A stretch of 64,000 nt of DNA from NCBI GenBank assembly GCA_016208495.1, contig JACQXX010000092.1, positions 1 to 64,000 on the forward strand, read 5' to 3'. The notes beneath the pieces were generated by a model. The model was not told the origin of the DNA and searched no databases. It was given only the letters and a program-made list of their open reading frames with translations. Source of the stretch: Acidobacteriota bacterium. GTDB lineage: Bacteria; Acidobacteriota; Blastocatellia; Chloracidobacteriales; Chloracidobacteriaceae. Both the position numbers and the translations under genes were made by a program. This document shows positions 1-63,973 of the stretch, piece by piece (positions within the stretch are counted from its first letter, which is position 1; each line of letters starts with the position of its first letter).

Positions 1-235
1 AGTCAGTAGTCAGTAGTCAGTAGTCAGTAGTCAGTAGTCAGTAGTCAGTAGTCAGTAGTCAGTAGTCAGTAGTCAGTAGTCAGTAGTCAGTAGTCAGTAG
101 TCAGTAGTCGAGTGTTGGGATTTGAGGACTTGTGTCAAGTGGATTTGGTTCTATTTGAGTCAGTTAGGAACAATTCTTTTTAAGAATTCCATGGATTCAG
201 CTATCCGGGTTTTATCTACTGACCACTGACTACAA
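1..235. repeat. AGTCAGT heptamer element, copy 1
   Basis: About 15 tandem copies of AGTCAGT (1-108) are followed by a roughly 110-bp core and then a short inverted arm of ACTGACT-type units (about 217-235). The same core recurs at 48888-49099 (inverted) and 62778-63040, so this is a dispersed element and not an isolated microsatellite. The left edge may continue outside the window. The core contains a small AATTCTT...AAGAATT inverted repeat. No coding capacity was seen. Confidence 0.9.
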
Positions 236-5617: not shown

Positions 5618-5715
5618 ATACCAATTTGTAGTGAAGTCCTCGTATTAGAAAATAGTCAAATAGTTCAATCAAATAAACTTAGTGAACTACTGACTACTGA
5701 CTACAAACTGGTATT
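5618..5715. repeat. Degenerate ACTGACT element
   Basis: A short run of ACTGACT units (about 5682-5703) lies between inverted ends: ATACCAATTTGTAGT on the left and ACTACAAACTGGTAT on the right. The heptamer matches the AGTCAGT elements but the core differs. It may be a decayed or separate member. Confidence 0.55.
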
Positions 5716-17754: not shown

Positions 17755-18336
17755 ATGGTTTACAATTCTGAAAAACACCATCGCCGGTCCATTCGATTGA
17801 AAGGGTATGATTATTCCCAGGCAGGTGCCTATTTCGTCACCATCTGCGTTCAAAACCGATTGCATTTGTTTGGAAATATTGAAGATGGGGTAATGAATTT
17901 GAATCCGGCGGGCCAGATGGTCGAACGATGGTGGCAGGAATTACCACACAAATTTCCAACCCTGGAAATTGATGAATATGTAGTGATGCCAAATCATTTC
18001 CACGCCATTATCGTCATTGACGACCAACCACCCGGTTCCCATCAGGAGGGCGGTTCCCATCAGGAGGGCGGACACGTAGGTCCGCCCCTACCCCGCCCTT
18101 CTGATGGGAATCGCCCGAATTTTACCGTCGGAACAATCGTGCAATGGTTCAAAACCATGACGACCAACGAATACATCCGCCACGTCAAACAAGACCGGTG
18201 GACGCCATTCCCCGGAAAATTATGGCAACGTGATTATTTCGAGCATATTGTCCGCAATCAGGAATCCCTCAATCGAATCCGCGCCTATATTGCGTCAAAC
18301 CCGGCAACCTGGGACCAGGATCGGGAAAACCGGTAA
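17755..18336 (+). mobile_element. RAYT (REP-associated tyrosine transposase)
   Basis: A 193-residue Y1-type transposase. The HUH motif is NHFH (His81, His83, in VVMPNHFHAIIVI). The family ending is present: LWQRDYFEHIVRNQ followed by IRAYIASNPATW, with the Tyr in RDYFEH as the likely catalytic residue. ATG at 17755 starts the conserved part (MVYNSEKHHRRSIRLKGYDY). RAYTs act on REP palindromes, and REPs lie directly before and after this gene. One REP, with two GGTTCCCATCAGGAGGGC repeats, lies inside the reading frame (about 18034-18110) without breaking it and adds a Gly/Pro-rich stretch at about residues 94-118. The gene separates the helicase from the methylase, so it probably inserted into an existing operon. 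Whether it is still active is unknown. Confidence 0.85.
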
Positions 18337-43217: not shown

Positions 43218-43397
43218 AAAGAGGGGGTTCGGGGTTCGGGGTTCGGGGTTCGGGGTTCGGGGTTGGGTTCGGGGTTTTCGAAGGAGGGCGCGGTTCAAAG
43301 CAACAGCGCCTTTACTTCACCCTGTCACGTTGTCACCTTGTCACCCTGTCACTCTGTCACTTTGTCACCCTGTCACTCTGTCACTTTGTCATTCAAA
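43218..43397. repeat. GGGGTTC heptamer array and TGTCACYY octamer array
   Basis: About seven GGGGTTC units (43224-43276) are followed by TTCGAAGG and then, from about 43320, by ten TGTCACYY octamers that enter the 3' end of rsmA. The heptamer end lies at the permease start, so the whole junction between two same-strand genes is repeat DNA. Confidence 0.9.
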
Positions 43398-47943: not shown

Positions 47944-48076
47944 GGAGGGTTCAGGGTTCAGGGTTCAGGGTTCAGGGTTCAGGGTTCAGGGTTCAGGGTT
48001 CAGGGTTCAGGGTTCAGGGTTCTTCGAGTGTATTCATTCCTCAACACCAAGCCCTCAGCCCCAAGCCCTCAACCCT
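47944..48076. repeat. GGGTTCA heptamer element
   Basis: About ten to eleven tandem GGGTTCA units (47947-48021) are followed by TTCTTCGAG and then CCCTCAG/CCCTCAA units (48043-48076) that partly pair with the array. It lies between the divergent genes dtd and rpiA. Confidence 0.9.
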
Positions 48077-48200: not shown

Positions 48201-48896
48201 ATGACCACATACAATCCGAAAGAAGTGGCCGGGATTTATGCCGCAAACCTGGTTGCCGAAGGCATGGTTGTCGGCTTAGGAACTGGCTCAACCGCTACAT
48301 TCATGATCAAGCATTTAGGCAAACGAGTCAGCGAAGGGCTGCATATTACGGCCATTCCAACCTCTGAAGCCTCCGCTCAGTTGGCCCAGAGCCTGGGGAT
48401 TCCGCTGGTTGGATTCGGCGAAATTGACCATATTGACATCACCATTGACGGCGCCGATGAAATTGATGGGCGGTTCGACATGCTCAAAGGCGGTGGTGGC
48501 GCGCTCTTGCGCGAAAAAGTCGTGGCGTCGTTGACGAAACGCCAGGTCTGTATTGTTGACCCGATTAAAGTTGTGGAGCAGATGGGCAAGTTTCCGCTCC
48601 CAGTTGAGGTTGTTCCCTTTGGCTGGGAAGTCGTCGCCCATCGCATTACCGCTCTGGGTGGCAAGTACACCTTGCGCCAGACCAAAGAGGCGGAACCGAA
48701 AACCTATGTGACCGACAACGGCAACTACATTCTGGACTGCGATTTTTACCCGATTACTGATGCTCCAGCCCTGGAACGAACCATCAAAATGATGCCCGGC
48801 GTGGTTGAAGTCGGCCTGTTCATCCAGATGGCTCACACGCTCATCATCGGGAATGAAGACGGCACCTGCACTGTGAAAGAAAGAGATAGTCAGTAG
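48201..48896 (+). CDS. rpiA: Ribose-5-phosphate isomerase A
   Basis: RpiA interconverts ribose 5-phosphate and ribulose 5-phosphate in the pentose phosphate pathway. The 231-residue protein shows the phosphate-binding GLGTGSTATF, the catalytic region DGADEIDGRFDMLKGGGGA, and FPLPVEVVPFGW. ATG at 48201 has AAGGA about 11 bases upstream and gives the normal length; the longer frame is rejected. The last residues (DSQ) and stop TAG lie within AGTCAGTAG, the first heptamers of the element that follows. Confidence 0.95.
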   Translation: MTTYNPKEVAGIYAANLVAEGMVVGLGTGSTATFMIKHLGKRVSEGLHITAIPTSEASAQLAQSLGIPLVGFGEIDHIDITIDGADEIDGRFDMLKGGGGALLREKVVASLTKRQVCIVDPIKVVEQMGKFPLPVEVVPFGWEVVAHRITALGGKYTLRQTKEAEPKTYVTDNGNYILDCDFYPITDAPALERTIKMMPGVVEVGLFIQMAHTLIIGNEDGTCTVKERDSQ

Positions 48897-49099
48897 TTGA
48901 TAAGTCAGTAGTCAGTAGATAAAACCCGGATAGTTAAATCTGTGGAATTCTTGAAAAGAATTGTCCCTAAATGACTCAAATAGAACCAAATACACTTGAC
49001 AGGCAATTCAAAATCCCAACACTCGACTACTGACTACTGACTACTGACTACTGACTACTGACTACTGACTACTGACTACTGACTACTGACTACTGACTA
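48888..49099. repeat. AGTCAGT heptamer element, copy 2 (inverted)
   Basis: In this orientation a short AGTCAGTAG arm with GTTGATAAGTCAG spacers (48888-48918) precedes the core (about 48919-49025), which is followed by about 10.5 ACTGACT units (49026-49099). The core is the reverse complement of copies 1 and 3, with scattered differences. It supplies the stop codon of rpiA and ends about 25 bp before the glyA start. Confidence 0.92.
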
Positions 49100-57817: not shown

Positions 57818-58149
57818 AGAATGAAGAATGTGGTTAGTGGTTAGTTTTTAGTGCCTGGTTCTTGGTTCTTCTTCGAAAGTATTGATTTCTAATCACTAAT
57901 CACTAATCACTAAAAGGGTTCTTCATTCTTAAGCTGGTGCATGTGTTGATCTGAGTTGGGTTTCACACAGGGGATTGTGTTTGGATAGAGCGATTTTCTT
58001 TTCCACGCATTCATTTTTTCAGGGGATTCCCCTCATCCTCACCTCCAGACACTCTTTTGGTGAGCACCACTCATCGCCAATGCCCGGTAAAACGATGTTA
58101 GTTTTTTTGAATTGAATTATTTGCGGGATTTCCCTGACAGGAAGAAACT
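57818..58149. repeat. AATCACT repeat element between atpH and atpA
   Basis: GGTTAGT units (about 57831-57848), a core containing TTCTTCGAAAGTATTG, and three AATCACT units (57891-57912) form an inverted-type layout. The 25 bp at 57868-57892 are the exact reverse complement of 34044-34068. From 57930 to 58149 I see only the atpA leader, with AGGAAG before its start. Confidence 0.75.
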
Positions 58150-60729: not shown

Positions 60730-60898
60730 CCGGGTTCAGGGTTCAGGGTTCAGGGTTCAGGGTTCAGGGTTCAGGGTTCAGGGTTCAGGGTTCAGGGTTC
60801 AGGGTTCAGGGTTCAGGGTCTTCGAACTTTTGTCCTTTTCGTCTTTTTTGTCCTTTATGTCTTTTAAACCCTGGACCCTGAAACCCTGAACCCTTACC
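60730..60898. repeat. GGGTTCA heptamer element with inverted arm
   Basis: About 12.5 GGGTTCA units (60732-60819), a core with TTCGAAC and GTCCTTT-type units, and an inverted arm of CCCTGAA units (60866-60895). It follows atpG. Confidence 0.9.
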
Positions 60899-61014: not shown

Positions 61015-62217
61015 ATGCTTGTTGTTATTTGTGGTGGTGGCCCTGGTGGCGCGGTTGCCGCCCAAAAGCTGGCCCAAAGTGGCGTTGAAACCATTCTTCT
61101 TGAAAAAAATTTCACCCGGATCAAACCCTGTGGCGGGGCAGTCCCTCCAGCGCTGATCCGCGAATTTGATATTCCAGAACACATCATTGAACGGCGGGTT
61201 CAAGCCCTCACGGTTTATGCCCCCTCAGGCCAATCGGTTCAGATAGAGACTTCAAATAGTTTTGTGGGCATGGTCAACCGCGAAGCGTTTGACAATTTCT
61301 TGCGGGATCGGGCGGCCCAGGCAGGTGCTTTGATCGTCGAAGCCCGCGTTGAAACACTTGATGCAACAGAACTTGGCGCGTTTGTGACGTTTACAACCCC
61401 TGACGGCAAACGGAAAACTGTCCAGCCGGATTGCATCATTGGCGCCGACGGCGTCAATTCTCTGGTCGCCCGAAAACTCAATCTGGTCAAAGGCGGTTTG
61501 CAGGCAACGGCTGTCCAGGAACGATTTGCACTCAAGTCTGATCACATTGCCCAGTTGATCCAGCGGTGTGAAATTTATTATGACGGGCGGTTTTCGCCTG
61601 ATTTCTATAGCTGGGTGTACCCTAAAGCCGACCACGTCGTGATTGGCACCGCCACCACAGTCAGCAATGCCAACGTCCATATCTATCTGGAAACCTTCAA
61701 ACAGCAGCTTGGCATTCATGACGCACCGATGTTGACTGAAACCGCTCAAATTCCGCTCCGTCCGTTGAAAAGCTGGACCGCCAACCGGGCAGTCTTGATC
61801 GGGGACGCTGCTGGCCTGGCAGCGCCAACGTCGGGTGAAGGCATTTATTATGCAATGAAAAGTGGTGTGATGGCGGCAGATGCAATTTTAGAATGCAGCG
61901 CTGATTTGCGGGCACATAAGCTGGAAGATGCCTACCAGAAACGATTTATGAAAGAGTACGGCGCAACCTACCGTCAACTTGAAGCTTTACAAACGGCTTA
62001 CTACCAGAGCGACGAACACCGCGAAGCACTGGTTCACCTGTGCACTGATGCCTCAATTCGTGATCTGGCCATCCAGTCATATCTGTTTAACAAACGCCTT
62101 TCACCAGTCTCAATTTTTACTTCATTAAAGCTCAAAACCAAAAACGCTGTTCAGTTGACCAGGGTGAAGCTTGGTCACTTTACCGGGAATGAAAAACTGG
62201 ACAAAATTGCCAAATGA
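61015..62217 (+). CDS. Geranylgeranyl-reductase-family FAD oxidoreductase
   Basis: A 400-residue flavoprotein. The FAD-binding motif VVICGGGPGGAVAAQKLAQS opens the protein. IKPCGGAVPP is a family motif, CIIGADGVNSLVARKL and AVLIGDAAGLAAPTSGEGIY are the later FAD contacts. The family reduces prenyl double bonds, for example in chlorophyll side chains, archaeal lipids or menaquinone tails. The overall look is closest to ChlP/BchP-like proteins, but no bacteriochlorophyll gene is present, so saturation of a quinone or another isoprenoid is the safer guess. It overlaps lptE by 4 bases (ATGA). Confidence 0.85.
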   Translation: MLVVICGGGPGGAVAAQKLAQSGVETILLEKNFTRIKPCGGAVPPALIREFDIPEHIIERRVQALTVYAPSGQSVQIETSNSFVGMVNREAFDNFLRDRAAQAGALIVEARVETLDATELGAFVTFTTPDGKRKTVQPDCIIGADGVNSLVARKLNLVKGGLQATAVQERFALKSDHIAQLIQRCEIYYDGRFSPDFYSWVYPKADHVVIGTATTVSNANVHIYLETFKQQLGIHDAPMLTETAQIPLRPLKSWTANRAVLIGDAAGLAAPTSGEGIYYAMKSGVMAADAILECSADLRAHKLEDAYQKRFMKEYGATYRQLEALQTAYYQSDEHREALVHLCTDASIRDLAIQSYLFNKRLSPVSIFTSLKLKTKNAVQLTRVKLGHFTGNEKLDKIAK

Positions 62218-62780
62218 ATCAACCTATTTCGTCGAAGCTCCACTATGTATTGCGTGTGTTTCACAGCATCTGTTTATTTGTTCTGGTGTTTGTGACGGTC
62301 GGTGCTGGCCCCTGCGGATACAAACCAGCCGGGAAAGGTGGTTCATTGCCGCCGAATATCCGCACGATTGCCATTCAGACATTTACCAACGAGAGCCTGC
62401 GGTATCGGGTCGAACAACGGTTTACGGCGGCGCTGGCGGATGAAATTCTGCGCCGGGGGTTACCAATCAGGCTCACAACCGATACCACTCACGCCGATGC
62501 GCTCATCACCGGGAGCATCCGCAACTTTGGATTTCGAGGGGTACTCGTTGACGATCAGGGCCGTATCCGCCTGTATGAACTCACCATCACTTCAGCCGTG
62601 ACGCTGCGCGACCAGACCTCCAATCGCGTCCTGTTTAACGATCAACGGCTGCAATTTCGTGGCGAATATCAACTCTCCGATGATCCGCGCTCATTTTTTA
62701 ACGAAGAAGACCCAGCCGTCGAACGCATGGCCCGCGACTTCGCCCGAAGCGTGGTAACTTCAATGTTAGAGGGATTTTAG
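62214..62780 (+). CDS. lptE: LptE-family outer-membrane LPS assembly lipoprotein
   Basis: A 188-residue protein. A hydrophobic N-terminus (VFHSICLFVLVFVTVGAGP) ends at a Cys in CGYKP, which fits a lipoprotein. SLPPNIRTIAIQTFTNES is typical of LptE, which sits in the LptD pore and helps place lipopolysaccharide on the cell surface. It is translationally coupled to the flavoprotein gene. The stop TAG is the first three bases of the AGTCAGT element that follows. Confidence 0.85.
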   Translation: MNQPISSKLHYVLRVFHSICLFVLVFVTVGAGPCGYKPAGKGGSLPPNIRTIAIQTFTNESLRYRVEQRFTAALADEILRRGLPIRLTTDTTHADALITGSIRNFGFRGVLVDDQGRIRLYELTITSAVTLRDQTSNRVLFNDQRLQFRGEYQLSDDPRSFFNEEDPAVERMARDFARSVVTSMLEGF

Positions 62781-63040
62781 TCAGTAGTCAGTAGTCAGTA
62801 GTCAGTAGTCAGTAGTCAGTAGTCAGTAGTCAGTAGTCAGTAGTCAGTAGTCAGTAGTCAGTAGTCAGTAGTCAGTAGTCGAGTGTTGGGAATTGAGAAA
62901 TTCTGTCAAGTGGATTCGGTTCTATTTGAGTCATTTAGGAACAATTCTTTTCAAGAATTCGACGGATTCAACGATCCGGGTTTTATCTACTGACTACTGA
63001 CTTATCAACTACTGACTTATCAACTACTGACTACTGACTA
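62778..63040. repeat. AGTCAGT heptamer element, copy 3
   Basis: About 14.5 AGTCAGT units (62779-62880), a core of about 115 bp (62880-62990), and an inverted arm of ACTGACT units with ACTTATCAACT spacers (62990-63040). The outer ends TAGTCAGTAG and CTACTGACTA are exact inverted repeats. The left TAG is the stop of lptE and the right CTA is the stop of rnz on the other strand. Confidence 0.95.
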
Positions 63041-63973
63041 CGATCTTGAATTATCCACCGTCCACACCAAAAAATCGTGCGCCAGCTCAGTATTGGGAAA
63101 GATTGAACGGGCATCTTTGAGCAGATCATCGAGGGTGATAGCGCTTTCATTGGTGTAGCGCGGGCTGAAATGTGTCAGCAAGAGTTGTTTCACACCGGCT
63201 TCGAGGGCGACACGGGCGGCCATGCGCGTGGTTGAATGCAGGGCGCGATGGGCCAGGGGCTCGTCTTCGTGGGCATAGGTACTTTCGTGAATCAAAACAT
63301 CCGCATCTTTGGCCAGCCGGACTGATGATTCGGAATAAATCGTGTCGGTGCAATACACCACTGACCGGCCCGGCTTGGGAGGACCACAGAGTTCGGCGCC
63401 GTTGATGGTTTGGCCATCGGCGAGCGTGATGGAATTACCGCGTTTGAGTTCTCCGTAGAGCGGCCCAAACGGAATCCCCAGCGCCTTTGCTTTTTCGACC
63501 AGAAACTGACCGGGTCGGTCTTTTTCCTGCACCCGGTAGCCATAAGCTGGAATGCGATGCCGGAGCGTGGCACAGGTAACCGTGTATTCGTGGTCTTCAA
63601 AGACCAGTCCAGGTTTCACCGGGTGAATATTGAGATTGTAGGGAAACTGGGTCTGCGTGAAGTGCTGGCAAGCGTGGATCAAGTCTTTCAACTCAGCCGG
63701 TCCATATAAATCAACTTTGGTCATTCGCCCGGTCAGACCAGCGCTGGAAAGCAAGCCCATCAGTCCAAACGTGTGGTCGCCGTGCATATGCGTGACGAAA
63801 ATACGGCGCAACTGGCTGATACTGAGGTTGCTGCGAAAAAACTGATGCTGGGTGCCTTCGCCACAGTCAAACATCCACTGCTCCCCTCGTTGGGTCAACG
63901 ACAGGATCACGCTCGACACATTGCGTGCCCGAGTTGGAACGCCTGAACTGGTACCGAGAAAAGTGATTTGCAT
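63038..63973 (-). CDS. rnz: Ribonuclease Z
   Basis: RNase Z removes 3' trailers from tRNA precursors. The 311-residue protein has the normal length of the short form. It shows the metal-binding motif HMHGDH (His62, His64, Asp66, His67), the opening FLGTSSGVPTRARNVSS, and DVLIHESTYAHED. The C-terminal SRS is followed by a TAG stop that belongs to the AGTCAGT element. The ATG is near the window edge and its upstream region begins with GGGCTGAA repeat DNA. Confidence 0.95.
   Translation of the reverse strand: MQITFLGTSSGVPTRARNVSSVILSLTQRGEQWMFDCGEGTQHQFFRSNLSISQLRRIFVTHMHGDHTFGLMGLLSSAGLTGRMTKVDLYGPAELKDLIHACQHFTQTQFPYNLNIHPVKPGLVFEDHEYTVTCATLRHRIPAYGYRVQEKDRPGQFLVEKAKALGIPFGPLYGELKRGNSITLADGQTINGAELCGPPKPGRSVVYCTDTIYSESSVRLAKDADVLIHESTYAHEDEPLAHRALHSTTRMAARVALEAGVKQLLLTHFSPRYTNESAITLDDLLKDARSIFPNTELAHDFLVWTVDNSRS

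Follow-up and report, generated by a model that had tools for sequence, protein, structure and literature searches.

Repeat units of seven nucleotides are over-represented in many bacterial genomes and have been little studied (PMC4692102). GGGAATC of Xanthomonas and GGGGA(C/T)T of Nostoc are 7-bp tandem units that vary in number and show enrichment in intergenic DNA; GGGAATC occurs in 70-75 pairs of convergent inverted arrays, which could form stem-loops (PMC4692102). A further heptamer, TAACTGA, is found as intergenic direct repeats in Beggiatoaceae, Cyanobacteria and Bacteroidetes, with a patchy distribution over distant phyla; most occurrences comprise 2-6 copies and immediately precede a start codon, with only one inverted repeat and no core (PMC4679880). 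In Porphyromonas gingivalis, the MITE BrickBuilt, of which there are 19 copies, encloses a minisatellite of 23-bp units together with a leader and a tail (PMC4596501).

The element described here was identified in an Acidobacteriota bacterium, in a stretch of 64,000 nucleotides (the window) that begins at the first base of contig C92. It resembles the Xanthomonas and Nostoc repeats in having an intergenic 7-bp tandem unit of variable number and convergent inverted pairs, but differs in its unit, and the accessible parts of the source describe for those repeats neither a conserved core between the arms nor a TCGA junction (PMC4692102). With TAACTGA it shares the patchy occurrence of an intergenic 7-bp repeat among distant phyla, although the unit here is TAGTCAG (PMC4679880). 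Like BrickBuilt, it is intergenic, multi-copy and non-coding, combines a tandem array with inverted ends and has a limited host range, whereas in BrickBuilt the array does not form an arm of an inverted pair (PMC4596501). The first-pass annotation had stated that no family with this layout was described. This holds in part: inverted heptamer pairs and a minisatellite within a MITE are already known, while the combination of a fixed core and a TCGA junction was not found described for any of these systems in the open-licence literature (for Xanthomonas and Nostoc, in the accessible parts of the source), where an older description could be missed.

Direct reading and TRF confirmed the three copies of the element in the window at the positions first assigned to them. 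Their parts are as follows:

1-109, plus strand: long left arm of copy 1 (reading and TRF), 15.6 perfect AGTCAGT units, cut short where the contig begins
108-222, plus strand: core of copy 1, 115 bp, with the TCGA junction motif at 108-111
223-235, plus strand: short inverted right arm of copy 1
48888-48911, minus strand: short inverted arm of copy 2, which includes the rpiA stop codon TAG (48894-48896)
48912-49026, minus strand: core of copy 2, 115 bp, with TCGA at 49023-49026
49025-49099, minus strand: long arm of copy 2, 10.7 perfect units, upstream of glyA (49124)
62778-62880, plus strand: long arm of copy 3, 14.7 perfect units, in which the first TAG (62778-62780) serves as stop for the gene upstream (ORF 62214-62780)
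62879-62993, plus strand: core of copy 3, 115 bp, with TCGA at 62879-62882
62994-63041, plus strand: short inverted arm of copy 3 with TTATCA words; an RNase Z-like gene has the outermost TAG of this arm (63038-63040, minus strand) as its stop

A shared core of about 115 bp had been proposed, and its length is 115 bp in all three copies. It starts with TCGAGTGTTGGG and ends with ATCCGGGTTTTATCTACTGA, with small differences among the copies, and is 88% (copy 2) and 90% (copy 3) identical to that of copy 1. The long perfect TAGTCAG array lies on the TCGAG side of the core, and CTACTGA mixed with CTTATCA is found on the other side. The original estimates of array length (about 15, 10.5 and 14.5 units) were close to the perfect units counted (15.6, 10.7 and 14.7), the first of which is a minimum since the contig begins within this array. 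The short inverted heptamer arm is present as described, but the right arm is not purely the complement of TAGTCAG, as CTTATCA and CTCATCA words are interspersed in it. The 14-mer AGTCAGTAGTCAGT has 40 matches in the window, compared with 0.00 in 100 dinucleotide shuffles.

The first-pass annotation had suggested a search of the genome and its relatives with the core. A DNA search with the core as the query yielded 41 matches in the 8.38-Mb genome, while a sequence-only profile built from 38 copies yielded at least 101, corresponding to approximately 98 places once split copies were joined; 150 of 4067 candidates were scored, so that the copy count may be a lower bound. The core was absent from all 97 relatives searched (family, order and class), it had no match in plasmids or viral contigs, and a search of genome contigs for the array-plus-core pattern gave no match. 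The copies are roughly 150-320 bp in size, occur in both orientations and lie between genes, against gene 3′ ends. Comparison of the flanks of 45 copies showed them to be mutually unrelated, except for one shared, unrelated dispersed repeat. Mean column identity of the core among copies is 88%, and the copies sort into sub-types. Nearly every copy has its heptamer arms in inverted orientation. The arms differ in length, with the left one exceeding the right in 40 of 45 copies and contig ends truncating some of the remaining ones, and they blur the boundaries of the element, which has no sharp end. The array varies from 0 to 30 units among copies, as anticipated for a VNTR arm.

The element is probably a MITE-like, non-autonomous dispersed repeat, composed of a 115-bp non-coding core between inverted TAGTCAG arms: it is short and non-coding, has terminal inverted repeats and is dispersed with unrelated flanks. 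The core and arms would be copied from place to place by an enzyme supplied in trans. The initial description as a non-autonomous mobile or amplified element is thus upheld as regards amplification and dispersal (about 98 non-coding places with unrelated flanks); no transposase sharing the element ends was found, either in a 1.2-Mb sample of the 8.4-Mb genome or between the halves of interrupted cores. These interrupted-looking cores contain other small repeats between their halves and no genes, and a search of the same sample for an autonomous copy, with genes between the arms, returned nothing beyond a chance pairing of arms on either side of a topoisomerase-like gene.

Several copies have an altered core (L342, L343, L344, L345 and L356), through loss of the left half, a hit by a small repeat or a swap of the unit. 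Where the left half is lost, the array is joined to an internal AGTCAGT-like word. Unit swaps on the same core were found in L012 (AGTCGTC) and L356 (GGTTAGT in place of AGTCAGT); because the same core can bear another unit, arrays appear to be renewed in place. The unit types of the left and right arms co-vary weakly (p 0.009 by rank, 0.04 by counts). Another small repeat with inverted ends (CTACAGCGAGGTTTTGGTTTTAACCTGCGAAGCGGGTG...) was observed inserted into or beside three core copies (L342, 1340-1540; L345, near 6756; L356, near 2486).

The presence of TCGA at the end of an array depends on array length. The motif borders 48-71% of arrays of at least 6 units and 6-11% of shorter ones, its fraction climbing from 6% (fewer than 4 units) to approximately 70% (at least 9 units) over a local background of about 4% per 14-nt window; among 272 arrays, median length is 9.4 units with a TCGA end and 3.9 units without (p=1.7e-14). 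Within a family the side of the motif is almost fixed (19:0 for AGTAGTC, 14:1 for AGGGTTC), and in the GGGTTC-type families the sequence beyond TCGA is unrelated between loci. These families are only partly independent: GGGTTCA, GGGTTCC and GGGGTTC are alike, and all TAGTCAG cases represent one core by descent. The trend is weak in the sister genome G001 (12 arrays, mostly AGGGTTC). The TCGA junction occurs at none of the 119 long arrays at loci of other genomes and is therefore not general to heptamer arrays.

These distributions, which come from the static sequence of one assembly, suggest polar growth of the arrays by whole heptamers at the TCGA junction. After insertion, the TCGA-side arm would lengthen by whole 7-bp units, most likely by slippage that recurs from a nick or end where the array meets TCGA, and would thereby become long and uniform, while the opposite arm would be short and decaying. 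In three mixed TAG/TCG arrays (L008, L011 and L290) the pure block adjoins the core and the variant TCG units are distal, an arrangement that, in so few cases, is suggestive only of growth at the junction. It is unlikely that growth reflects a dedicated directional process, in which a site-specific nick or end at the array/TCGA boundary would be extended in whole heptamers, across many heptamer families of this lineage and on the same side, with the strict 7-bp period found in different phyla due to an enzyme and not to generic slippage.

The core element belongs to a wider class of 7-bp repeat brackets located between bacterial genes. In 1.208 Mb of contigs, which were picked for bearing the element and whose densities are thus not unbiased genome averages, 209 of 237 perfect arrays (at least 3.5 units) have a period of 7; the remainder have periods of 8 (22 arrays), 4 (five) and 9 (one), other periods from 4 to 15 being unrepresented. 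There are many unit families (ACTACTG, AACCCTG, AACCACT, AACCCGG and others), often arranged as inverted pairs or nested. All but 14 of the 272 arrays are intergenic (the 14 lie inside called genes), and arrays are present in 36% of convergent, 31% of tandem and 15% of divergent gaps, as delimited by gene calls from simple ORF scoring instead of standard annotation. Two related brackets are located in the window:

47946-48075, plus strand: bracket of another family, (AGGGTTC)11, TTCGAGTG, a spacer and a degenerate inverted arm
60732-60896, plus strand: bracket composed of (GGGTTCA)12.6, CTTCGAA, a spacer and an inverted arm AACCCTGAACCC

Other repeats were observed in the same DNA. Nested inverted arrays, with GAATGAAG as the outer and TTAGTGG as the inner unit around a short conserved centre (AAATCAATACTTTCGAAGAAGAACCA), are present at 57820-57940 of the window and at many other loci. 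A period of 8 is the sole other common array period, and arrays of this kind (TTGTCACC/TCACCCTG) adjoin heptamer or other repeats at 282-366 and 43317-43391 of the window. Clear terminal inverted repeats (ATACCAGTTTGTAGT...ACTACAAATTGGTAT) mark a further small repeat at 5618-5714 of the window (minus strand), which itself carries 2.7-4.7 GTAGTCA units; 1.2 Mb of the genome contains over a dozen copies similar to it.

TAGTCAG arrays are also found in other genomes. Three consecutive units occur in 22 of the 98 genomes of the class (own genome included) and in 16 of 41 genera, whereas the reversed control gave one match per strand, in a single genome. Five consecutive units were found in at least 119 stretches from many phyla; Cyanobacteria, Bacteroidota, Chloroflexota, Planctomycetota and Proteobacteria are among the matches listed. 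The spacers between inverted arms in these other genomes are unrelated and share no core. Since inverted-arm heptamer arrays occur elsewhere without a fixed core, the arms and the core may have separate origins.

Copies of the element are closely associated with stop codons. The unit AGTCAGT provides stop codons in all six frames, which is true of only 13% of heptamers. In the 1.2-Mb sample the stop codon lies inside the arm for 14 of the 36 gene 3′ ends that face a copy, and no more than 10 nt away for 11 more; in the window, the stops of rpiA (48894-48896), of the gene preceding copy 3 (62778-62780) and of the RNase Z-like gene (63038-63040) all lie within arms. A copy landing at the 3′ end of a gene would terminate it cleanly through these six-frame stops. 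If transcribed, the arms would form one long hairpin, which may act secondarily on mRNA ends; the fold predicted with the arms has a free energy of -105 kcal/mol (z -10.0) for copy 3 and -71 kcal/mol (z -6.5) for copy 2.

An alternative is that the inverted arrays are functional brackets of gene ends, selected as 3′-end hairpins (a terminator, mRNA stabiliser or barrier), whose sequence turns over while their position stays. This is possible but rather unlikely. The strong predicted folds (z of the two copies as above) favour it, as does the way in which copies hug stop codons and avoid divergent gaps. It also accords with the orthologous rpiA-glyA gap of G001, which contains a different inverted bracket, (AATTGAG)5.4 and (AATTCTC)3.6, directly after the rpiA stop; this suggests that at rpiA-glyA place matters more than sequence. 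However, over 18 comparable syntenic gaps arrays were present in both genomes in four cases, in our genome only in three, in G001 only in four and in neither in seven, so that no clear excess of shared positions was seen. Nor does selection of the hairpin explain the conservation of the 115-bp core among copies, and a search of copy 2 for an intrinsic terminator found none. Because array presence is not clearly shared over the 18 gaps, we retain the amplified MITE-like repeat as the best explanation, and regard a role at gene ends as a rival or a secondary use.

REP/REPIN sequences are palindromes of 20-40 bp tied to a RAYT gene, with no heptamer array. The present element resembles them in its many short intergenic copies per genome, its preference for gene 3′ ends and the GTAG at its foot, but no RAYT link was found for it. 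That it is itself a GTAG-tagged palindrome mobilized by a Y1 transposase is very unlikely: GTAG does precede the core and the genome has nine Y1-domain matches, yet no TAGTCAG array is present at any of the nine loci (up to about 3.3 kb each), and a short GGGTTCA array lies some 1.3 kb from one of them. Furthermore, the element is far bigger than a REP and its core forms no conserved hairpin. A partial Y1-transposase-like frame (a weak match, 25 bits) with an internal 9/18-bp repeat expansion (GSHQEGGSHQEGG) was observed at 18112-18297 of the window (L286).

A conserved 115-mer that is dispersed and intergenic might also be expected of a structured non-coding RNA family. The chance of this is slight, as the window has no Rfam match and RNAalifold found in the core 12 weak pairs, none compensatory, and no conserved RNA fold; a tRNA scan detected nothing. 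Segmental duplication of a larger core-bearing region, which the first-pass annotation would have inferred from a core confined to three places with duplicated flanks, has no support beyond the copies themselves and is ruled out by the unrelated flanks and the approximately 98 places. An assembly or sequencing artefact can be practically dismissed: although contigs C56, C92, C97, C138, C172 and C75 end inside arrays, many copies are internal to contigs with unique flanks on both sides, and identical heptamer arrays recur in numerous independent assemblies. Contig ends fall inside the element in these six contigs and in C32 and C59, so assembled array lengths are minima; the element probably fragments the assembly.

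An excess of 7-bp repeats in bacterial intergenic regions has been reported, so far with no explanation. The arrays analyzed here have a fixed motif at one end, on a fixed side and with an effect of length, and one family has a conserved core in approximately 98 places. With these features, an observation that had been little more than a statistical curiosity becomes a system whose origin (the TCGA junction) can be tested and, if array lengths vary as expected, the arrays would provide markers for strain typing.
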